Shown here in pieces: positions 15,652 to 51,122 of a stretch of 64,000 nt of DNA (positions within the stretch are counted from its first letter, which is position 1; each line of letters opens with the position of its first letter). A program made the position numbers and the translations under genes. The notes below the pieces were generated by a model, which made no database searches, was not told where the DNA came from, and saw only the letters and a program-made list of their open reading frames with translations. Origin of the DNA: an uncultured Subdoligranulum sp. (lineage in GTDB: Bacteria > Bacillota > Clostridia > Oscillospirales > Ruminococcaceae); contig CALZZE010000010.1 in NCBI GenBank assembly GCA_945830575.1, forward strand, positions 1 to 64,000. Reading direction: 5' to 3'.

Positions 15652-16092
15652 TTATTCGGTTTCCAGCGGCACACCCCGATGCTCCACGGGGGTGGAAAAC
15701 ACGATTTGGGTGCGGGTACGGCCAAACTGCTGCAAATGGTTGATGAACTGGTCCAATTCCTGCGTGGTGCCGAACAAAACCTCAATGAGCATGCTGTAAT
15801 CCCCGGTGACGCAGCAGCACTCCACCACATGGGGACAGCTCTCGATGTAGGGGTAAAACTCCGGCTTACGGGAGGGGTCCATGTCCAGATTGATGAAGGC
15901 CTTCACCATGTAGCCCAGCTTGGGAGCGTCGATCTGCGCCTGATACCCGGTGAGTACACCGGAGCTTTCCAGCCGGGCGATGCGGGCGGACACGGCGGGG
16001 GAGGAGAGGAACACCTTGTCGGCAATCTCTTTCAGCGGCGCTCTGGCGTTCGTTTGCAGGATGTCAATGATTTTGCGGTCGATATGATCCAT
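15652..16092 (-). CDS. Lrp/AsnC family transcriptional regulator
   Basis: A 146-residue regulator. Residues 1-60 form the AsnC-type HTH (MDHIDRKIIDILQTNARAPL, then VFLSSPAVSARIARLESSGVL). Residues 65-140 are the RAM ligand-binding domain with the VTGDYSMLIEV strand. It probably senses an amino acid. The start at 16092 has GGAGG 7 nt upstream. It is monocistronic with its own terminator, so its target is not evident from context. Confidence 0.9.
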   Translation of the reverse strand: MDHIDRKIIDILQTNARAPLKEIADKVFLSSPAVSARIARLESSGVLTGYQAQIDAPKLGYMVKAFINLDMDPSRKPEFYPYIESCPHVVECCCVTGDYSMLIEVLFGTTQELDQFINHLQQFGRTRTQIVFSTPVEHRGVPLETE

Positions 16093-16177
16093 GGTATGCC
16101 TCCACTTTATTCTGAAAAGCATTGTACCACAGAAAAAACGGAAAGTAAAGCGAACGGCAAAAGAATCTTAAGATGGC

Positions 16178-17506
16178 TCATGGATACTGAGGGATGTCCG
16201 GGAAGGCGAGACGTGCGCTGAACCGTCCGCTGGGACTGTACATTTCAAAATGACAATGATTGCCGAAGGAATATCCTGTGTTGCCCACATAGCCGATGAT
16301 CTGTCCCTGTGTGACGGTGTCGCCCTGCGCTACGGCAAGGCCGGACATGTGCCCGTAGAGTGTTTTCCAGCCGCCGCCATGGTCAATGATGACATAGTTG
16401 CCGTAGCTGTAAGGGTGGTTGTGCCATCCGGCGGTGGTAACGGTGCCGTTCGCTGCCGCGTAGATGGGAGTGCCATAGGGGGCGGCAATGTCGGCGCCGT
16501 AATGACCGCTGCCCATCCATCGGCTGACCTGCCGGTATTCCGGTACGGGCCACAGAAAGCTGTGCCCCTGATACTGCACCAGCATGCCGTCCTTCAACCG
16601 GGTGCCGCGCAGGATCTGTTCGTTCACCGAGGCCTGAACCAGTTGGACGTCCACCGTGACGGTCTGCACCGGACTTCCATCCAAATAGATGGTGTCCTGT
16701 GTGATCTCCTGCTCACCGGGACTGCCTTCCCGCAGACGCTTTGTTTCGCCGTAGGCAAGCTCCGCCGTGTCCAGATATTCGGTGGAAAAAGGGACGGCCT
16801 CCCGAAAACTGCTGCGCACCACGGCCTGCACCTCAAACAGAGAAGAATCAGAAAGAACATCCTCCCAGCGGGAAAGGGAATCCGGCAGAAATACGCCATC
16901 TACCAGCCGGAGGTCATGCACAAATTCCGCTCTTGCGCCCGGAGGCGCGGTGGCCAGTGCGGACTGTTTCAAAAAGGCCATTCTCATCCGCAGATGCTCC
17001 CCCTCGCCGCAGATCGTCCGGAGAACCCCATCTACATAGACGGCGGTGCCCTCGCACAGGGAATCAGCACTGGCACGCAGAATGGCGTCTGCCATCTGGC
17101 TTTCGGTCATGGGGGTGCCGCCCTGCACCAGCGTGAAGGTGGGCCACACCTCCAGATGGAGATCAGAGCTGGCGATGCGGCTCTGTACATCCTCCCGCGC
17201 GGCATCAAAGACCTGCTCGGATGTTACACAGCCCACATTCTGCCCATTTACCTGAACGGACAGCAGAAATGGCTGCGCCAGCGTGCGGCGCACCAGCAGC
17301 ACAAGCCCCAGTGCCGCCAGCCCCGGCAGGAGCAAAGACCGGAGACGCAGATGCCGGAGCTGCAAACACAGCCGCAATGGCGGACGCAGCAGCGCCCCGG
17401 CCAGCATACGGGCCGTATCCCGCAGAAGCCGCCACAGCCGCAGAGCGGTGTATTCCACAAAAAAGCCGGTCTGGTAACAGATTTCTCCCAAAAGCCGGAT
17501 CGTCAT
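16178..17506 (-). CDS. Membrane-anchored M23 (LytM) peptidase with G5-like domain
   Basis: A 442-residue protein, one membrane helix (about 57-75) with an Arg-rich cytoplasmic stub, an outer linker, a G5-like region (about 225-305, FREAVPFSTEYLDT to TVDVQLV) and a C-terminal M23 domain (about 325-430). Zinc and catalytic residues are intact: His and Asp of HYGAD, LYGHM, and the HxH of NHCHFEM. It should cut peptide cross-links in peptidoglycan, or bind them. The plan resembles SpoIIQ-type or VanY-linked G5/LytM proteins. Last gene of the BlaI operon; 4-bp overlap with the preceding gene. Confidence 0.85.
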   Translation of the reverse strand: MTIRLLGEICYQTGFFVEYTALRLWRLLRDTARMLAGALLRPPLRLCLQLRHLRLRSLLLPGLAALGLVLLVRRTLAQPFLLSVQVNGQNVGCVTSEQVFDAAREDVQSRIASSDLHLEVWPTFTLVQGGTPMTESQMADAILRASADSLCEGTAVYVDGVLRTICGEGEHLRMRMAFLKQSALATAPPGARAEFVHDLRLVDGVFLPDSLSRWEDVLSDSSLFEVQAVVRSSFREAVPFSTEYLDTAELAYGETKRLREGSPGEQEITQDTIYLDGSPVQTVTVDVQLVQASVNEQILRGTRLKDGMLVQYQGHSFLWPVPEYRQVSRWMGSGHYGADIAAPYGTPIYAAANGTVTTAGWHNHPYSYGNYVIIDHGGGWKTLYGHMSGLAVAQGDTVTQGQIIGYVGNTGYSFGNHCHFEMYSPSGRFSARLAFPDIPQYP

Positions 17507-18732
17507 ACCGGAATCATCCTCAGCGCATCGGTGCGCACGCCGTCAATGCGAAGCTCCAGATGTAAATGATAGCCGCCGTTTTTGCCGCGCACATCGCCGG
17601 TGTTGCCCACATAGCCGATGAGCTGCCCCTTGCTGACAACGCTGCCCGCCGAAACGCAAAAGCTCTGCATGTGGGCATACAGTGTGTCGTAGCGGTGCCC
17701 GTCGTCCGCGGTGCCGTGACTCAGCTGCACCACGTTGCCGTAGCTGGGGCGGGCGGCGGCCAGACTTACCACCCCGTCCGCCGCCGCGTAGATGGGCGTG
17801 CCGCCAGGGGCGGCCAGGTCGGTGCCGTTGTGGCCGCTGCCGTCAATGGCGTCCGGCGCACCGAACCGGCAGGTGATGGCGGTGTAGCTTTGCAGCACAG
17901 GCCCAAAATCCAAACTGCAATGCAGATCCGGCGTGGTGTATTTCCGGCTCTGGGCACGGGCGTAAGCGTCCAACGCGGCGGATGCCTGCTGGTAGGCGGC
18001 TTTGGCCTGCTCGGTCACGGCGGCCTGTGCCAGCGCGGCGGCCTGCTGCTCGCTCAGCGTCTCGTTGGCCTGCTGCAAAGCCTGTGCCAGCTGATTTTGT
18101 GTCTCGGTCAGCTCGATTTGCCGGCTTTCCAGTGCGGCGCGGGCGTTCTCCGCCTGTCTGGCGGCGTCCTCCGCTTGCTGCTGCTGCCGTACCAGCGCGG
18201 TGGTTTGCTCGTCCAATTCTGACAGAACAGCGCTGTTTTTGGCACTCATCTGCCGCAGTACGCTGGCAAAACTCAACAGCTGGTACAGATTGTTGGCCTG
18301 CGCCAGCAGCGCGATGCCTCCGCCGCCGTCCAGCCGCTGCATGGCGGCCATCTGCGTTTTGCACCGGGCCAGTGCGTCCGCATATTCCGCCTGTTTGGCA
18401 GCCAGCGCCCGGCGGGCGGCGTCCTCGGTGGCCAGCGCCTCGCTCAGCCGGGTCTGGGCCTGCTGGAGTGCATCGGTCACCTCGGCCAGCTGCGCTTGCA
18501 GCTCCCCGGCGCGGCCCTCCAGTTGGGTGATGCGCTGCTCGGTATCCTTTTGACGGCCTTGCAATTCCTCCAAGGCGTTTTGCTCCTGCTCATACTGGCT
18601 TTTGGCGCTGCTGAGCGTGCCGGAAAGCCGGTCTTTCTGCTCGTCTGCGGCAGCCGCAGGGGCAAAAAGGGTGCAAAAAAGCAGCCCCGCCGCCAACAGG
18701 AATGCGGCGGGACGCAAAAACGTGTGTTTCAT
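17503..18732 (-). CDS. EnvC-like secreted coiled-coil M23 peptidase
   Basis: A 409-residue exported protein. Residues 1-29 are a signal peptide ending AAAADEQ. Residues 33-260 are an Ala/Gln/Glu-rich coiled coil, and residues 300-405 an M23 domain with HNGTD, YAHM and HLHLE, so the catalytic set is complete. In EnvC/CwlO-type proteins the coiled coil gates the hydrolase through an FtsEX-like partner; no ftsEX is adjacent. It starts 3 bp after the M56-M23 gene and overlaps the next by ATGA. Confidence 0.87.
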   Translation of the reverse strand: MKHTFLRPAAFLLAAGLLFCTLFAPAAAADEQKDRLSGTLSSAKSQYEQEQNALEELQGRQKDTEQRITQLEGRAGELQAQLAEVTDALQQAQTRLSEALATEDAARRALAAKQAEYADALARCKTQMAAMQRLDGGGGIALLAQANNLYQLLSFASVLRQMSAKNSAVLSELDEQTTALVRQQQQAEDAARQAENARAALESRQIELTETQNQLAQALQQANETLSEQQAAALAQAAVTEQAKAAYQQASAALDAYARAQSRKYTTPDLHCSLDFGPVLQSYTAITCRFGAPDAIDGSGHNGTDLAAPGGTPIYAAADGVVSLAAARPSYGNVVQLSHGTADDGHRYDTLYAHMQSFCVSAGSVVSKGQLIGYVGNTGDVRGKNGGYHLHLELRIDGVRTDALRMIPV

Positions 18733-18735
18733 GGA

Positions 18736-20184
18736 TTACGAAATGGTTTCTCTGGCCAGCAGCGCGGCGGCCTGTTCTTCGGTGAGCGGCAGGGGAGCCG
18801 TGCCGTCTGCCTCCCGTGTGAACCAGCGGGGCGGCAGGACCTGCCCGTCGCGCCGAACTTCAAAATGCAGGTGGTTGCCGGTGGACATGCCGGTGCTGCC
18901 CACTCCGCCGATGATTTGTCCGCGGGTCACCGGGTCGCCTTCTTTTACGATAGGTTCTTCCGCCAGATGGGCGTATAAGGTCTGCCATGTGGCGCCGTCG
19001 GGAGTGGTCCCATGGTCGATCATCACATAATATCCAAAGGAATAGTGGTACTCTGCGATCACCACCGTGCCGTCTGCGGCGGCATGAACCTCCGTTCCGT
19101 GGTCGGCGGCATAGTCATCCCCTCTATGGTCCTTCGCCATATAACGGGAAATGTACTTGAAGTCCGGGACAGGGCAGGAAAAATACCCGCTCATATCCAT
19201 CAGCGTCTGTTCCGGTGTAGGGGTGGAAACCGGCGTGGGGGAAGGTGTTGGCTCCGGTACGGAGACCACTTCCTCCACCGCAGGGGCGGGCGGAGCTGCC
19301 TCAGGGCGCACCATGCAGGCGGTGGCGCACAGGGCGGTCACAACAGCGCAGGCCGCCAGTGCAGCCCGGCCGGGGCGGTGATACCGCAAAAGATGTGCCA
19401 CCCGCCGCCGCACGCCGCCCTGCCCAAAGGACAGACTGCCAGGCACAGAGCTGCCCCGCACTGCAAATTGCAGCAGGGTCTCCCCGTAGGCGGCTCGCTG
19501 GCGGGCGGTGCGGCTGTGGACTGCCGCCTCGTCACAGGCGTCCTCCATGCAACGCTCGAACTGGCGAAAGGCCAGCCATGCCGCCGGATTGAACCAGTGC
19601 AGGCAGGCCACCGCGTAAAACAGCGGCTTGGTGAGGGTGTCGCCCCGGCGGATGTGGGTCTGCTCATGGCACAGCACGGCGGCGCGGGCCTCGCCGGTAA
19701 GGCTGTCCGGCAAAAAGATGCGGGGATGCACCACGCCCAGCGTAAAGGGCACCGGCACGCCGCCGTAGCAGCCGTCCGGCCCTTTGCAGGCGGTGGCCAC
19801 GCTGTGCCGCAGTCCGGCGTACCTCCACGCCGCCCGCACTGCCAAAAACACCGCGCCTGCCAGCCATACGACAAAAACCACTGTGGCCCAGTCCATCCCG
19901 GCGGTTTTCTGCACCGGCGCAGCGGTGCTTGGTGTCGTCAAGGCAGGGGAGAATTCCCGCACCGCCGTGTCCAGCCGGAGCAGCGGTTCACTTTGGGGGC
20001 GGGGCACCGTCACACGGAGCCCCTGCGGCCACACGTAACGCACTGCCACCGCCAGCCACAGCCAGCAGAGCCACCGGCCGGGCGTGCCCAGCCGCCGCAA
20101 CATCCCGCAGACAGCCCATACGCCCACCGCCGATACACTGCCCCACAGGCTGGCCCGGAGCAGCCAAACAACAAATTGCGTCAC
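18736..20184 (-). CDS. BlaR1-type M56 sensor protease fused to an M23 domain
   Basis: A 482-residue membrane protein. Helices near 5-27, 38-55 and 100-120 lead into an M56 metalloprotease domain with HEQTH at 173-177 and the downstream ED-A-CDEAAV segment at 214-222. A last helix lies at 274-291. A Pro/Thr-rich linker (about 296-325) then joins a C-terminal M23 domain (about 335-450) with His353, Asp357, His406, His438 and His440, the full LytM set. BlaR1/MecR1 carry a penicillin-binding domain at this outer position instead. The M56 domain is predicted to relieve repression by the BlaI protein encoded 3 bp upstream. Confidence 0.9.
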   Translation of the reverse strand: MTQFVVWLLRASLWGSVSAVGVWAVCGMLRRLGTPGRWLCWLWLAVAVRYVWPQGLRVTVPRPQSEPLLRLDTAVREFSPALTTPSTAAPVQKTAGMDWATVVFVVWLAGAVFLAVRAAWRYAGLRHSVATACKGPDGCYGGVPVPFTLGVVHPRIFLPDSLTGEARAAVLCHEQTHIRRGDTLTKPLFYAVACLHWFNPAAWLAFRQFERCMEDACDEAAVHSRTARQRAAYGETLLQFAVRGSSVPGSLSFGQGGVRRRVAHLLRYHRPGRAALAACAVVTALCATACMVRPEAAPPAPAVEEVVSVPEPTPSPTPVSTPTPEQTLMDMSGYFSCPVPDFKYISRYMAKDHRGDDYAADHGTEVHAAADGTVVIAEYHYSFGYYVMIDHGTTPDGATWQTLYAHLAEEPIVKEGDPVTRGQIIGGVGSTGMSTGNHLHFEVRRDGQVLPPRWFTREADGTAPLPLTEEQAAALLARETIS

Positions 20185-20187
20185 GAC

Positions 20188-20553
20188 TCATTCCTCCCGT
20201 TCGGCCTCGTCCAGCAGGGCGCGGATGGCGGCGGCCTCCTTCCGGCTGATGGGTTTGCTGTTCAAAAAGGCGGCCACGAACCGGGGCAGACTGCCGCCGA
20301 AGGTCCTGTCCACCACGGCGGCGCTTTCCGCCTGCTGCACTTCGTCCCGCTTGACGAGCGCGGTCACCACGCCGCCCTCGTTTTGCAGAATCCCACGCTC
20401 ACACAGCTTTTTCAGCACGGTGTAGGCGGTGCTTTTTTTCCAGCCCAGCTCCTTGTCTGCCAGTGCGGCCAGCTGCCCGCTGCCCAGCGGCTCATGGTCC
20501 CACACAAGGCCGGCAAAACGGTATTCTCCCTCCGCCAGACGAATCTCTTTCAT
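20188..20553 (-). CDS. BlaI/MecI/CopY family repressor
   Basis: A 121-residue repressor: winged helix at residues 5-75 (EYRFAGLVWDHEPLGSGQLA, KKSTAYTVLKKLCERGIL, EGGVVTALVKRDEVQQAES) and a helical dimerisation tail where BlaI relatives are cleaved. It heads the four-gene operon BlaI, M56-M23, EnvC-like, G5-M23. Its promoter holds two dyads, consistent with autorepression. Confidence 0.92.
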   Translation of the reverse strand: MKEIRLAEGEYRFAGLVWDHEPLGSGQLAALADKELGWKKSTAYTVLKKLCERGILQNEGGVVTALVKRDEVQQAESAAVVDRTFGGSLPRFVAAFLNSKPISRKEAAAIRALLDEAEREE

Positions 20554-20569
20554 TATGCATATCTCCTTG

Positions 20570-20585
20570 GTCTACTGCGATAGAC
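20570..20585. promoter_or_regulatory. Proximal BlaI operator dyad
   Basis: GTCTAC-TGCG-ATAGAC, arms matching at 5 of 6 positions. It lies in the leader between the -10 and the ribosome site, 28 bp from the other dyad centre. Confidence 0.6.
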
Positions 20586-20596
20586 TTTCTATCGAT

Positions 20597-20625
20597 AGTC
20601 TATCACAATAGACCAAGAATGTCAA
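20597..20625 (-). promoter_or_regulatory. Promoter and distal operator of the BlaI/M56-M23 operon
   Basis: On the minus strand TTGACA (20620-20625), 17-bp spacer, TAGACT (20597-20602). A perfect dyad GTCTAT-CACA-ATAGAC (20598-20613) covers the -10 and part of the spacer, a position that would block RNA polymerase when bound. Confidence 0.8.
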
Positions 20626-20628
20626 GAG

Positions 20629-20660
20629 AAATCCGCCCCTGTTTTGGCAGGGGCGGATTT
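20629..20660 (-). terminator. Terminator of the alpha-glucoside operon
   Basis: Perfect 13-bp stem AAATCCGCCCCTG/CAGGGGCGGATTT with a 6-nt loop. It ends 4 bp from the -35 of the BlaI operon, insulating the two. Confidence 0.82.
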
Positions 20661-20675: not shown

Positions 20676-22055
20676 TTAGTGCAATTCAGGCCAGTATTCC
20701 TTGTTGGCCTCGATCATGTCGTCCAGAATGGCTTTTGCCACGTTCATGCTGGGGACGGTCTTGTTGAGGGTGAAGGCCTGCAGAACCTTCTCATAGCTGC
20801 CCTCAATGCAGCCCTGCACCAGCAGCTTTTCGCTGTTGACCTGCTGCATCATCAGACCCTGCTGGAACAGGGGGATGGGCTTCTGCGTGATGACCTCGGG
20901 ACCGTTCTTGCCGATGTAGGCGGGCACCTCCACCATGGCATCGTAAGGCATGTTGGGGATGCAGCCGCGGTTCTCGGTGATGACGAGGAACCGGGCCTTG
21001 GTGTCGTTTTTCAGCGCAATGGCCAGATCTGCGATCCAGTCGCCATGGCTGCCGGCGTAGAACACCTTCTCGTCGATCTCGCCGGTGGCAAGGTACTTGT
21101 CGATGCCGTCAAACAGGTTCTTTTCGCGGGTCTCCATGACCTCGTTGGCGCGGGTGTGGGTGGGATCGGAGTGCTCCACGAACTCCTTGCACTGGAGATA
21201 GTAGTTCAGATAGGTGTTGGGCAGCATCTCGGGGAAGTTCTCCATGATCTCATAGACGCCCTTCCACACATAGTACCAGCTGCCACGGGTGTGACGGTTG
21301 CCCTCGGCGCCGGTGCCCTTGTTCTGCACGCCCACGCCCAGCGCGGCCTTGTCCTTCAGGTAGGCGTCCGGCAGCAGGATCTGGTGCTCCTTGATGTACT
21401 CGCGCAGGGGACCCAGCAGATCCTGACCCTTGTACTCGATGGAGGTGAACCAGCCGAAATGATTCAGGCCAAAGTAATCGTAAACGATCTCCTTTTTGTC
21501 CTTGATGTTCATGGCGGCGGCCACCACATCGATGATGGCGATGGGCATGTCGCAGATGTTGATGATGCGGGCGTTGGGGCGCAGCACGCGGCAGGCCTCC
21601 GACACGATGGCAGCGGGATTGGAGTAGTTGAGGATCCAGTGGTCCGGCTTGGCGTACTTCTCGGCGTCGTCGATGACCTTCATCATGGGGAAGATGGTGC
21701 GCATGCCGTACGCCATGCCGCCGCAGCCGCAGGTCTCCTGACCCACGCAGCCGTGCTTGAGGGGAATCTTTTCGTCCTGCTCCCGCATGGCATACTTGCC
21801 CACACGCATCTGGGCGAAGATGAAGGAGGCGTCTTTATAAGCGGTCTCGGGGTCGTTGGTGTTGATGAGTTTGATGCCGCACTTCAGATCTTCGTGCAGG
21901 ATCCAGTCCACCACCACGGCGACCTTGTCCTGACGCTCTTTATCAATGTCAAACAGACGGATCTCGGTGACGTCCAGTTCCTCCCGGCGCAGGGCAATGG
22001 ATTTGACGATGCCCGGCGTGAAAGTGCTGCCGCCGCCAACAATGGTAATGATCAT
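20676..22055 (-). CDS. 6-phospho-alpha-glucosidase (GH4)
   Basis: A 459-residue NAD- and metal-dependent glycosidase of family GH4 that splits 6-phosphorylated alpha-glucosides such as maltose-6-phosphate in the cytoplasm. The Rossmann start VGGGSTFTPG is at residues 6-15. The active-site motif at 168-171 is CDMP, the form found in alpha-specific enzymes (MalH/GlvA), whereas beta-specific members carry CNIP or CNVP. GLNHFGW supplies the metal-binding His199. It lies 19 bp after the PTS gene, forming a licT-PTS-GH4 unit. Confidence 0.93.
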   Translation of the reverse strand: MIITIVGGGSTFTPGIVKSIALRREELDVTEIRLFDIDKERQDKVAVVVDWILHEDLKCGIKLINTNDPETAYKDASFIFAQMRVGKYAMREQDEKIPLKHGCVGQETCGCGGMAYGMRTIFPMMKVIDDAEKYAKPDHWILNYSNPAAIVSEACRVLRPNARIINICDMPIAIIDVVAAAMNIKDKKEIVYDYFGLNHFGWFTSIEYKGQDLLGPLREYIKEHQILLPDAYLKDKAALGVGVQNKGTGAEGNRHTRGSWYYVWKGVYEIMENFPEMLPNTYLNYYLQCKEFVEHSDPTHTRANEVMETREKNLFDGIDKYLATGEIDEKVFYAGSHGDWIADLAIALKNDTKARFLVITENRGCIPNMPYDAMVEVPAYIGKNGPEVITQKPIPLFQQGLMMQQVNSEKLLVQGCIEGSYEKVLQAFTLNKTVPSMNVAKAILDDMIEANKEYWPELH

Positions 22056-48753: not shown

Positions 48754-50739
48754 ATGAAAGTGTTTCTGGACTGGCTGGCTCCCGCCGGGGTGCAGTCGCT
48801 GTTTGTCAGCTGGGCCGTGCAGGGGGCATTGCTGGGGCTTTGCGTGCTGGCAGGGCTGGCTGTGTCCGGCAGGGTGCGGAAAGCCTTCGGCTTTGGCTGG
48901 CTGTGCCGGCAATGGCTTTTGATGGCGCTGCTGTTTCTGGTGCCTGTTCAGCAGGCGGCGCAGATGCTTTCCGCCACCGCGCTGGAACCGCTTTTCATCA
49001 TTCTCCGCCATGGGCGTTCCTCCGCCGTGACGGTCACGGTGCCGCCGCAGCTCACCCATTCGGTTTCCATCGGCTCCGGGGCCGCCGCGCAGACCGTCAT
49101 TCCGCAGACGGCGCCCGTTCATGCGGCGGTGCTGCCCAGCCCGCTGCAATGGGGGACGGCGCTGTGGCTGTGCGGTCTGGCGCTGGTGCTGGCGTGGAAC
49201 CTGACGTCCTATTGCGTGTGGCGGCACAGGGCGCTGCGCAATGCCGCCCCGCCGGATGCGGGCTGGCTCTGCGAAGGCATGACTGTCCTTGCCACGCCCG
49301 CGGTGCAGGGGCCGGTGCTGGCGGGAATGTTCCGTCCGGTGCTGCTGGTGCCGCCCGGTCCCGCCCCGGCGGGAGCCGCTTACATGCTGGCCCATGAACA
49401 GGCCCATCTGCGCCGCCATGATGTGGCCTTCAAGCTGATGCTGATGCTGGTGTGCGCGGTGCACTGGTACAATCCGGCGGTCTGGCTGCTGCAAAGCCGT
49501 GCCTCCCGCGACATCGAGGCCGCCTGTGACGCTGCCGTGCTGCAGAACCAGTCCAACGACTACCGCGCCGCCTATGCGGACGCGCTGCTGGAGGCGGTGC
49601 GCCAGAGCCGCGGCCCGGTGCTGACCAGCTGCTTTGCTCTGAACAAACACCAGCTCAAGGCGCGGCTTGCGGCGCTGTGGGACACGGAACCCAAGCTGAG
49701 GGGGCGGCTGAATCTGGCGCTGGTGGGATACATCTGTCTTTCCCTCTGTTTGCTGGTGGCCTGCCAGACGCAGGCAGATTCGGAACCCACCGAGGAGGAG
49801 CTGAAAAGCAGCGCCCTCATGCTGGCCATGGAGCCTGTGCAGGTGCCGCAGGACGCGGAACCGGAACAACTGGCGATTCTGGCCGCCGCGCAGTTTGTGC
49901 GGGAACCTCTTGTGAACAATATCCGCAGCGACACGGAGCACACCATGGGGATGTATCAGGATTATCCGGGCATGGTCAGCCAGCTGGCGGACCCGGACGG
50001 GGAAATCGCGGAGATGCTGGATTCTTCCACGCTGCTGGTGGACACTCCCGAAGGCTACAAGACCATCCGGGAATGTCTCGCCATGCCGGGGTATTATCTG
50101 GTCAAGGTCAGCTATACCATCTACTACACGCCGGAGACCCTGTATCTTGGCCCCCAGTACAGCGACGGTGCCAGCCGGAAATATATTCTGGTCTGCGTAA
50201 ACGGGGAGCAGCCTGCCTGTCTGGACTTTGCACCGCCCTCTTCCGATGACAGCGCGCCCACGGAACCCACCCAGACCTCTGAGGCCAAAGCGCTGCGGTT
50301 ATCCACGCGACAATACCTGATGCTGGAGCATCAGACTAAAGCGTTGTACCGCGCCGGAATCGGGAACTTCACCAGCCCCAAAGACTGGACGGATGCGGAG
50401 CTGACCCGGTATCTGTACTATCGCAGCCGGGATTATCTGGGAGACTGCGACCAAATGGCCGCTAACCTGATGCTGACGGTGGACTTTACCGCAGAAGATG
50501 ACTGGTCACACAACGCCCGGTTCCTGTCACTGGAGTGGAGCGGTGTGGAGCAAACGGTCTGGGCGCAGTGCAACAGCGAACCATGGCCCGAGCCGCAGTC
50601 CATCCGGTACACCGCCAACGGTGACGGCACCATCACCGCGCAGACCGACCGGGCGCGGTATACCTTCCGGGTCTACAACGGCGGCGGCATCGACTGGTCG
50701 GCCCGCACATACTGCATCGGAGGGGAGGCCGTCTCATGA
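48754..50739 (+). CDS. M56 family BlaR1-like protease with a large unknown outer domain
   Basis: A 661-residue membrane protein with helices near 15-37, 53-72, 132-155 and 320-337. The M56 domain has HEQAH at 214-218 and DIEAACDAAV at 253-262, so the zinc site is intact. After the last helix comes LLVACQTQ, resembling a lipobox, and then about 320 residues outside the membrane with no recognised sensor motif: no penicillin-binding SxxK/KTG set and no M23 motif. It should relieve the co-encoded BlaI in response to an unknown envelope signal. Stop and blaI start overlap (ATGA). Confidence 0.85.
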   Translation: MKVFLDWLAPAGVQSLFVSWAVQGALLGLCVLAGLAVSGRVRKAFGFGWLCRQWLLMALLFLVPVQQAAQMLSATALEPLFIILRHGRSSAVTVTVPPQLTHSVSIGSGAAAQTVIPQTAPVHAAVLPSPLQWGTALWLCGLALVLAWNLTSYCVWRHRALRNAAPPDAGWLCEGMTVLATPAVQGPVLAGMFRPVLLVPPGPAPAGAAYMLAHEQAHLRRHDVAFKLMLMLVCAVHWYNPAVWLLQSRASRDIEAACDAAVLQNQSNDYRAAYADALLEAVRQSRGPVLTSCFALNKHQLKARLAALWDTEPKLRGRLNLALVGYICLSLCLLVACQTQADSEPTEEELKSSALMLAMEPVQVPQDAEPEQLAILAAAQFVREPLVNNIRSDTEHTMGMYQDYPGMVSQLADPDGEIAEMLDSSTLLVDTPEGYKTIRECLAMPGYYLVKVSYTIYYTPETLYLGPQYSDGASRKYILVCVNGEQPACLDFAPPSSDDSAPTEPTQTSEAKALRLSTRQYLMLEHQTKALYRAGIGNFTSPKDWTDAELTRYLYYRSRDYLGDCDQMAANLMLTVDFTAEDDWSHNARFLSLEWSGVEQTVWAQCNSEPWPEPQSIRYTANGDGTITAQTDRARYTFRVYNGGGIDWSARTYCIGGEAVS

Positions 50740-51122
50740 ATCAGATTGCACGCCTGCCCGACGCGGAACTGGAGGTGATGAACGCCCTCTGGGCCGCCGG
50801 AGAACCCCTGACCCGCCCGGAACTGGAACAGCGCCTTGCCCACAAGGGCTGGGCGGCCACCACATTGCTGGCGCTGCTGACCCGTCTGGAGGAAAAGGGC
50901 TTTGTGACCCGGCACAAGCAGGGCCGCGGCTACCTGTACGCGGCGTCGGTGCCCCGCAGGGAATACGCCAAAACCGAGGGCCGCACGGCGCTGGGGCGGA
51001 TGTTCGGTGGCAGCGCCAAAAACCTGGTGGCGGCGCTGGCGGAGACAGACGCTCTTACTGACGCGGACATTGACGAACTGAGCGACTATCTGGAACAGCT
51101 CAAACGGCGGCACCAAACATAA
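50736..51122 (+). CDS. BlaI family repressor (second copy)
   Basis: A 128-residue BlaI/MecI repressor: winged helix in residues 5-75 (LPDAELEVMNALWAAGEPL, TTLLALLTRLEEKGFVTRHKQGRGYLY) and a helical tail (ALGRMFGGSAKNLVAALAE) where proteolysis normally occurs. It follows its protease gene by ATGA overlap, the reverse of the order at 18.7-20.6 kb. The two operators 5' of the operon are its likely sites. Confidence 0.93.
   Translation: MNQIARLPDAELEVMNALWAAGEPLTRPELEQRLAHKGWAATTLLALLTRLEEKGFVTRHKQGRGYLYAASVPRREYAKTEGRTALGRMFGGSAKNLVAALAETDALTDADIDELSDYLEQLKRRHQT

Follow-up and report, generated by a model that had tools for sequence, protein, structure and literature searches.

A BlaR1-like membrane protein with an outer M23 peptidase domain, and its probable control of peptidoglycan hydrolases in Gemmiger

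The 64,000-nucleotide stretch of DNA analysed here (the window; contig CALZZE010000010.1 of assembly GCA_945830575.1, from an uncultured Subdoligranulum sp.) carries a minus-strand operon of four genes, which encode in order a BlaI repressor, a membrane protein that joins an M56 protease part to an M23 peptidase domain (the sensor), and two further M23 proteins, one with a coiled coil (CC_M23) and one with a G5 domain (G5_M23). We consider it probable that this is a BlaR1/BlaI-type circuit that controls peptidoglycan hydrolases, in which the outer M23 domain of the sensor acts as a substrate receptor that relieves repression by BlaI. Comparative genomics revealed a predicted operator that is common to the sensor operon and to the two M23 hydrolases. 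An earlier reading of the window, made from its letters alone (the sequence-only reading), had proposed that a BlaI/M56 circuit adjusts the production of hydrolases, and the regulatory side of that proposal is strongly supported, the operator being found at both hydrolase genes when these lie apart from the operon. The tight coupling of the four genes, with intergenic gaps of 3, 3 and -4 bp, was borne out by gene calls and domain matches.

Thirty-five Gemmiger genomes (the own genome and 34 relatives; genomes and loci are given G and L numbers below) were compared, and the M56-M23 protein is present in 24 of them, namely the own genome and 23/34 relatives; it was not found in G008, G012 and G025, each of which is more than 90% complete. 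The operator pattern GTCTAY-N4-RTAGAC was derived from the BlaI promoters. The site proposed earlier for BlaI binding (20570-20613) was found to contain two dyads, GTCTATTGTGATAGAC and GTCTATCGCAGTAGAC, which overlap the promoter or lie just behind it. The looser pattern GTCTA-N4-6-TAGAC occurs at two places only in the own assembly, both at this promoter, against 18 matches per strand for a reversed control pattern, and the tighter operator pattern, with up to 1 mismatch allowed, also matches the own assembly only here. When 3 mismatches were allowed, the own genome gave 60 matches versus 191 for the reversed control, of which only the first rows were interpreted. In 23/24 Gemmiger operons the BlaI promoter carries the operator with no more than 1 mismatch, the remaining operon beginning at a contig end, and so do the BlaI promoters of L060, L099 and L109; a similar layout of promoter and operator is visible in the relatives. 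In the distant M56-M23 operons L062, L063, L064 and L065 other operator-like letters stand 5' of BlaI (TACA/TGTA-like or GTTACATGTGTAAC types), so that the operator seems to drift together with its BlaI.

The hydrolase genes that lie outside the BlaI operon provide an independent test of a shared regulon. Matches to CC_M23 under about 48% identity and partial matches to G5_M23 were treated as paralogues, which left 24 CC_M23 orthologues, 12 of them behind the sensor gene (the window included) and 12 outside the BlaI operon. Every stand-alone CC_M23 gene in a genome with M56-M23 (8/8) has a pair of operator sites within 170 bases of its aligned start. The full-length G5_M23 orthologues (n = 21) comprise three within the BlaI operon, nine that follow CC_M23 in a separate unit and nine that stand alone, and the stand-alone units have the operator at 0-1 mismatch in 9/9 cases. 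All 17 stand-alone hydrolase units (8 CC_M23, 9 G5_M23) in sensor-bearing Gemmiger genomes share the operator; mononucleotide shuffling puts the chance rate, with up to 2 mismatches allowed, at about 0.03 sites in 450 nt. Five of the six CC_M23 paralogues have no site, and the sixth has one with 2 mismatches at -330; the G5_M23 paralogues served as a control at two loci, both without a site, since the other 7/9 had fewer than 10 bases upstream. Four CC_M23 genes belong to genomes without a detected M56-M23 protein, and here G013 has the pair of sites, G012 and G026 have none, and G031 offers too little upstream sequence. Comparison of stand-alone units with the sensor present or absent therefore gives 17/17 versus 0/2 (p 0.006), or versus 1/3 when G013 is counted (p 0.016). 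When ten genomes (own and nine relatives) were searched for the exact operator, the result was the sensor operons and the hydrolase units, plus two other matches with different core letters (G004:C1:2156773 and G012:C1:167712); in G008 it gave no match.

The presence of G5_M23 also follows that of the sensor. Full-length G5_M23 was found in 20/24 genomes with M56-M23 and in 1/11 without (Fisher p 5e-5), and at a completeness of at least 90% in 15/16 versus 0/3 (p 0.004); the figures for CC_M23 at the same completeness are 15/16 versus 1/3 (p 0.05). The circuit had been described as self-contained, which is true of the regulon and often untrue of the operon, given that CC_M23 lies outside it in 12/24 of the genomes that hold this gene and G5_M23 in 18/21.

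The joining of M56 and M23 in a single protein is real. The two domains stand together in one open frame in 41 distinct proteins (counted after merging identical sequences), and a frameshift or assembly error near the join, either of which would have undone the proposal, is ruled out by the recurrence of the same join in all of them. In the sensor of the window, HEQTH is at residue 173 of the M56 part, and the M23 residues H353, D357, H406, H438 and H440 are all at the positions reported earlier. Structure prediction, which had been proposed as a check for residues 330-482, gave a model that resembles BlaR1 at residues 4-260 and M23 peptidases at residues 324-477, and M56 profile A2 matches BlaR1 (8exp) across profile positions 7-295. 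The window sensor has the hallmarks of the BlaR1/MecR1 zinc proteases, namely HExxH followed further on by a Glu in a membrane-embedded part, and it also has the M23 motifs H(x)nD and HxH with the zinc triad. The penicillin-binding (class D beta-lactamase-like) C-terminal domain is absent; its place is taken by PF01551, with an M23 fold in the model, and a family search of the sensor protein listed no transpeptidase, penicillin-binding or beta-lactamase family. By analogy with BlaR1, the M23 domain would be located outside the cell. Its five residues had been called a full set of metal ligands, a description that holds for H353, D357 and H440: in M23 peptidases the leading His of the HxH motif (H438 in the window sensor) is no zinc ligand and is proposed to activate water, and a His about 30 residues before HxH (here H406) might help catalysis (PMC9662197). 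Both Y404 and H406, which lie outside the metal triad, are invariant across 30 aligned sequences. With all five residues in place, the M23 domain of the window sensor may itself be an active enzyme.

The five M23 residues were read in every M23 domain of the 41 sensors. The zinc triad is complete in the first M23 domain of 37/41, whereas the catalytic H438 has been replaced in 18/41 (by A, G, S, L, Q, C or N), with the triad intact in 15 of these 18. At least one complete M23 domain is found in 30/41 sensors and none in 11/41. Other M23 domains from the same neighbourhoods are complete in 20/22 cases, as are 9 of the 12 other M23 domains of the own genome, and no replacement of H438 was seen in 33 scorable non-sensor M23 domains (0/33; one further domain has a gap at this position). 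On the M56 tree, on which some rows have long branches, the H438 state changes at least 12 times, a count that gives no direction. Twelve sensors have tandem M23 domains; L049 is truncated at the end of its contig, and of the 11 that are complete, 10 have exactly one complete domain and L109 has none. In eight of those 10 H438 is missing from the first domain, and in two H406 is missing from the second; the 10 belong to few clades on the M56 tree and do not represent 10 independent cases.

These natural losses have a laboratory counterpart. Since crystals of wild-type Pgp3 turned the substrates over, the H247A mutant was used as a substrate trap, and its structures were determined with a pentapeptide and with a tetra-tri peptide (PMC6978369). 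In the tandem sensor of G. formicilis (L037) a natural Ala aligns with this engineered one, and in the sequence search the mutant chains scored 62.1 bits versus 59.2 bits for the wild type. The earlier suggestion that the outer domain binds peptidoglycan is supported by these structures, together with the repeated loss of H438 and a zinc triad that is mostly kept.

A mechanism can be proposed on this basis, in which BlaI would occupy the two GTCTAY-N4-RTAGAC dyads and repress its own operon, and in related species would also repress the separate units of both M23 hydrolases. By homology to BlaR1, the M56 part would be the membrane-embedded protease that cleaves BlaI once the outer domain is engaged; in BlaR1 itself, an engaged outer domain activates the protease part and BlaI is then cut (PMC7593790). 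The outer M23 domain would dock the stem peptides or cross-bridges that serve as substrate for the hydrolases, such that an accumulation of uncut substrate would raise hydrolase synthesis and a well-trimmed wall would lower it. In relatives that have lost one catalytic His the receptor looks like a binding-only trap, and the tandem forms appear as if one domain reads and the other clears or resets. Since the window receptor keeps all of its catalytic residues, it may both read its ligand and slowly cut it, much as the slow-turnover sensor of BlaR1 does; indeed turnover by the BlaR1/MecR1 sensors is much slower than that by beta-lactamases (PMC7593790). A peptidoglycan dipeptide has also been reported to bind BlaI/MecI directly (PMC3305447), and a cytoplasmic dipeptide of this kind could act on BlaI here as well. 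For the more specific proposal of a hydrolase turned receptor we regard the case as evenly balanced. On this view the protein would gauge the demand for hydrolases of the M23 family, and so control them, through uncut substrate that docks in its M23 groove; turnover in the groove would have been disabled many times by natural loss of the His that is mutated in crystallography to trap substrate, and the tandem forms would have one reading and one cutting domain.

It may be that the receptor was at times copied from its target gene, as is hinted at by L066 and L104, where the sensor M23 domain groups with the M23 gene next to it on the M23 tree (support 81 for L066; support 92 for L104, together with L137). 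The identity between sensor domain and adjacent M23 protein is 51% over 211 residues at L066 and 50% over 109 residues at L104. The tree (83 rows, 97 columns) was made by a quick method and leaves 32/80 inner branches open, and on it the M23 domain of the window sensor has no supported placement and no grouping with its target genes.

Several observations weigh against a substrate receptor that controls hydrolases. The sign of the response, in which more substrate brings more hydrolase, is a guess, and the ligand, the cleavage of BlaI and the induction are predictions. In S. aureus BlaI the cleavage site is Asn-Phe; in an alignment of 88 BlaI rows from all loci, Phe stands at the P1' position in 76/88, and the residue before this conserved Phe is Ala in 76/88 rows, where S. 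aureus BlaI has Asn. On the genomic side, G013 (83% complete) has the operator at CC_M23 with M56-M23 undetected, and the control in which neither sensor nor operator is present consists of two genomes only (G012 and G026). The co-occurrence of CC_M23 with the sensor is weak (20/24 versus 4/11, p 0.015); four sensor genomes have no CC_M23 and four have no G5_M23. All of the Fisher values ignore kinship, and comparison of related species overstates independence. Several distant M56-M23 loci, among them L063, L065, L100, L122 and L137, have no adjoining M23 gene. Lastly, the first M23 domain has its full catalytic set in 22/41 sensors, the window's own among them, for which reason a 'binding only' receptor cannot be general.

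The full catalytic set would suit a different arrangement, in which the M23 domain is mainly a membrane-tethered hydrolase, a cargo or output, and M56/BlaI senses membrane or turgor strain or a cytoplasmic muropeptide that acts on BlaI. The M23 domain of the window sensor has its five residues intact, 30/41 proteins retain one or more complete M23 domains, and the dipeptide reported to bind BlaI/MecI (PMC3305447) could be such a signal. This arrangement is nevertheless rather unlikely, as 11/41 proteins keep the fusion without any complete M23 domain and the 12 or more changes of H438 state would not be expected of an enzyme selected for cutting. Less likely again is a protein-protein sensor of the division machinery, similar to EnvC and the degenerate LytM proteins, that reports the state of the divisome or of amidases. 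M23 members with an incomplete site mostly take part in protein-protein interactions (PMC9662197), and 8/41 sensors have a tail of 143-182 residues after M23 that looks to the eye like coiled coil; the zinc triad is kept, however, in 15/18 domains without H438, which suggests that the metal site and the groove are still in use.

The completeness of that triad in 37/41 first domains could also mean that the zinc site is itself the sensor, with M23 reporting extracellular zinc and the circuit fitting zinc-dependent hydrolases to the supply, in the manner of PetR/PetP, a BlaI-like/BlaR1-like pair of a cyanobacterium that responds to copper (PMC7896320). We hold this to be very improbable: the window operon has no zinc-transport gene (neighbours in the relatives were compared to a short query set only), and the invariance of Y404 and H406 in 30 sequences extends beyond the metal triad. 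An ordinary beta-lactam resistance system, with the outer domain as a mere wall anchor, can draw on the homology of BlaI and of the M56 part to the resistance pair; it is the reading to which we attach least credence, given that the family search of the sensor protein listed neither a penicillin-binding nor a beta-lactamase family and that, within the assembly, this promoter alone has the exact operator, though weaker sites may exist elsewhere.

Like BlaR1-BlaI and MecR1-MecI, the system combines an M56 protease part, a BlaI repressor encoded alongside and dyad operators at its own promoter. Unlike them, it has a sensor domain with an M23 endopeptidase fold, where that of BlaR1 has a class D beta-lactamase fold, and an operator (GTCTAY-N4-RTAGAC) that marks peptidoglycan hydrolases. 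The known systems target beta-lactamase or PBP2a; here the exact operator is confined to this promoter in the own assembly, in which weaker sites may exist as well, and in relatives it marks M23 hydrolase genes. Because the defining sensor domain is lacking, the circuit, which would work like BlaR1/BlaI, stands outside the beta-lactam sensor family. A review of M23 peptidases records M23 together with another catalytic domain, M56 among them, in fewer than 1% of hits (PMC9662197); its passages on the M56 + M23 pair assign no function and mention neither an operon with a partner repressor nor an operator or regulon, and neither tandem forms nor the loss of residues (PMC9662197). In C. difficile an uncharacterized BlaI-BlaR system, CD630_23900-23880, is cotranscribed with a predicted peptidoglycan hydrolase (PMC9210968). 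It is likened to the present operon by its description, which states neither the domain make-up of the BlaR-like protein nor an operator in the passages concerned (PMC9210968). PetR-PetP of Synechocystis likewise pairs a BlaI-like factor with a BlaR1-like protease and a non-beta-lactam signal, but differs in that the signal is copper, the outputs are photosynthetic electron carriers, and no M23 domain is mentioned in the excerpt drawn on (PMC7896320). Pgp3, an M23 peptidase of Campylobacter jejuni, is the best PDB sequence match of the first M23 domain of a tandem sensor; it differs in being a free enzyme whose His loss (H247A) is a laboratory mutation. WalRK is a two-component system and is not known to have a hydrolase-fold receptor. 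It controls wall hydrolases, and peptidoglycan hydrolysis products have been implicated in its regulation in B. subtilis (PMC9210968).

It has long been asked how bacteria keep the cutting of their wall in step with its growth, and few receptors are known to read the wall directly. No description of this circuit was found in the open-licence literature, nor any support there for a link between the circuit and the budding habit of Gemmiger. If the proposal is true, BlaR1 would, to our knowledge, be joined by a second M56 antirepressor whose sensor was once a wall-related enzyme fold, and we know of no M56/BlaI circuit previously shown to serve housekeeping wall turnover. With a named operator and two outputs, the circuit is small enough to be rebuilt in the laboratory, and its natural receptor variants seem to separate binding from cutting. 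The M56/BlaI pairs of gut Clostridia need to be reread, as annotation as beta-lactam resistance is probably wrong here.

The features of the operon are collected in Table 1. The BlaI of the window scores 66.4 bits against PF03965 (the Penicillinase_R winged-helix domain; cut-off 22.6), and its single PDB sequence match at E 0.01 is the penicillinase repressor 1sd4 (E 8.7e-5). In CC_M23 the M23 domain sits C-terminal to an extended segment that looks like coiled coil, and from its start the protein would be exported; G5_M23 is probably membrane-anchored. The description of CC_M23 as EnvC-like was apt for this layout only. E. coli EnvC is named among the M23 members without a complete residue set (PMC9662197), and the degenerate LytM active site that characterizes EnvC-type amidase activators is not shared by the window CC_M23, which has HDHHH at the five M23 active-site positions and so keeps all five. 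The hairpin upstream of the promoter is probably a terminator that insulates the operon.

Table 1. Features of the BlaI operon and its control region (window positions)
Feature	Position	Strand	Details
G+C-rich hairpin, 8-bp arms, between upstream gene (20676-22055) and promoter	20633..20656	-	terminator-like 20650-20633
Promoter TTGACA-17 nt-TAGACT	20597..20625	-	10/12 consensus positions
Operator dyad 1, GTCTATTGTGATAGAC, overlaps spacer and -10	20598..20613	-	predicted BlaI site
Operator dyad 2, GTCTATCGCAGTAGAC, just downstream of promoter	20570..20585	-	predicted BlaI site
BlaI-family winged-helix repressor, 121 aa	20188..20553	-	PF03965 E 3.6e-18
M56-M23 membrane protein, putative sensor/antirepressor, 482 aa, GTG start	18736..20184	-	PF05569 E 5.9e-37; PF01551 E 2.6e-28, residues 352-450
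Sensor transmembrane + M56 part, residues 1-290, HEQTH at 173, invariant E214	19315..20184	-	PF05569, alignment
Sensor M23 domain, predicted extracellular, about residues 352-450; H353, D357, H440 zinc ligands; H406, H438 catalytic	18835..19131	-	
CC_M23, coiled-coil M23 hydrolase, 409 aa, active site complete, predicted regulon member	17503..18732	-	PF01551 E 7.5e-27
G5_M23, G5 + M23 hydrolase, 442 aa, active site complete, predicted regulon member	16178..17506	-	G5 E 2.3e-12; PF01551 E 3.7e-32

With regard to distribution, BlaI lies upstream of 40/41 M56-M23 proteins with a gap of at most 218 bases, the exception being a tandem second copy. An M23 gene downstream of the sensor is also found in L060 and L099 (with one gene between), in L062 and L135 (Ruthenibacterium), and in L066 and L104; the neighbouring genes of relatives were labelled only via queries derived from the window and profiles made from these sequences. 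Among the matches listed for 196 genomes of the class, those starting in M56 and ending past position 450 of 493 came from the own genome and, twice, from G287, a lower bound for the class because split matches would escape. Both G287 matches adjoin BlaI and are additional to the 41, and G172 is a contig-edge case.

Variants of the sensor were also observed. In one Gemmiger clade (L041:7591-9537 and L042 to L048) the sensors continue past M23 for 143-182 residues, in what looks like a coiled coil; in this clade CC_M23 either lies away from the operon or went undetected. At two of these loci the sensor gene is followed immediately by another M56 gene (L041:6030-7559 and L043:5556-6755), one with an M23 domain that has no H438 and one without M23. 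At L066:5889-7829 (-) the outer part of the sensor consists of G5 + M23, and its neighbour is a G5-M23 protein.

Elsewhere in the window, a gene for an Lrp/AsnC-type regulator (15652-16122, minus strand) lies 3' of the operon, as it does in many Gemmiger relatives, and has its own promoter-like site at 16149-16121. A second M56/BlaI pair (48754-51122, plus strand) has the M56 gene first (661 aa, with no M23 match) and BlaI after it; its promoter carries the dyads TTCTACAAGTGTAGAA and TTCTACAAACGTAGAA, an operator unlike that of the M56-M23 operon. A third BlaI-family gene, G000:C1:107186-107530 (L005, L163), has no M56 match nearby, lies close to an integrase-like gene and has TACA/TGTA-like letters upstream.

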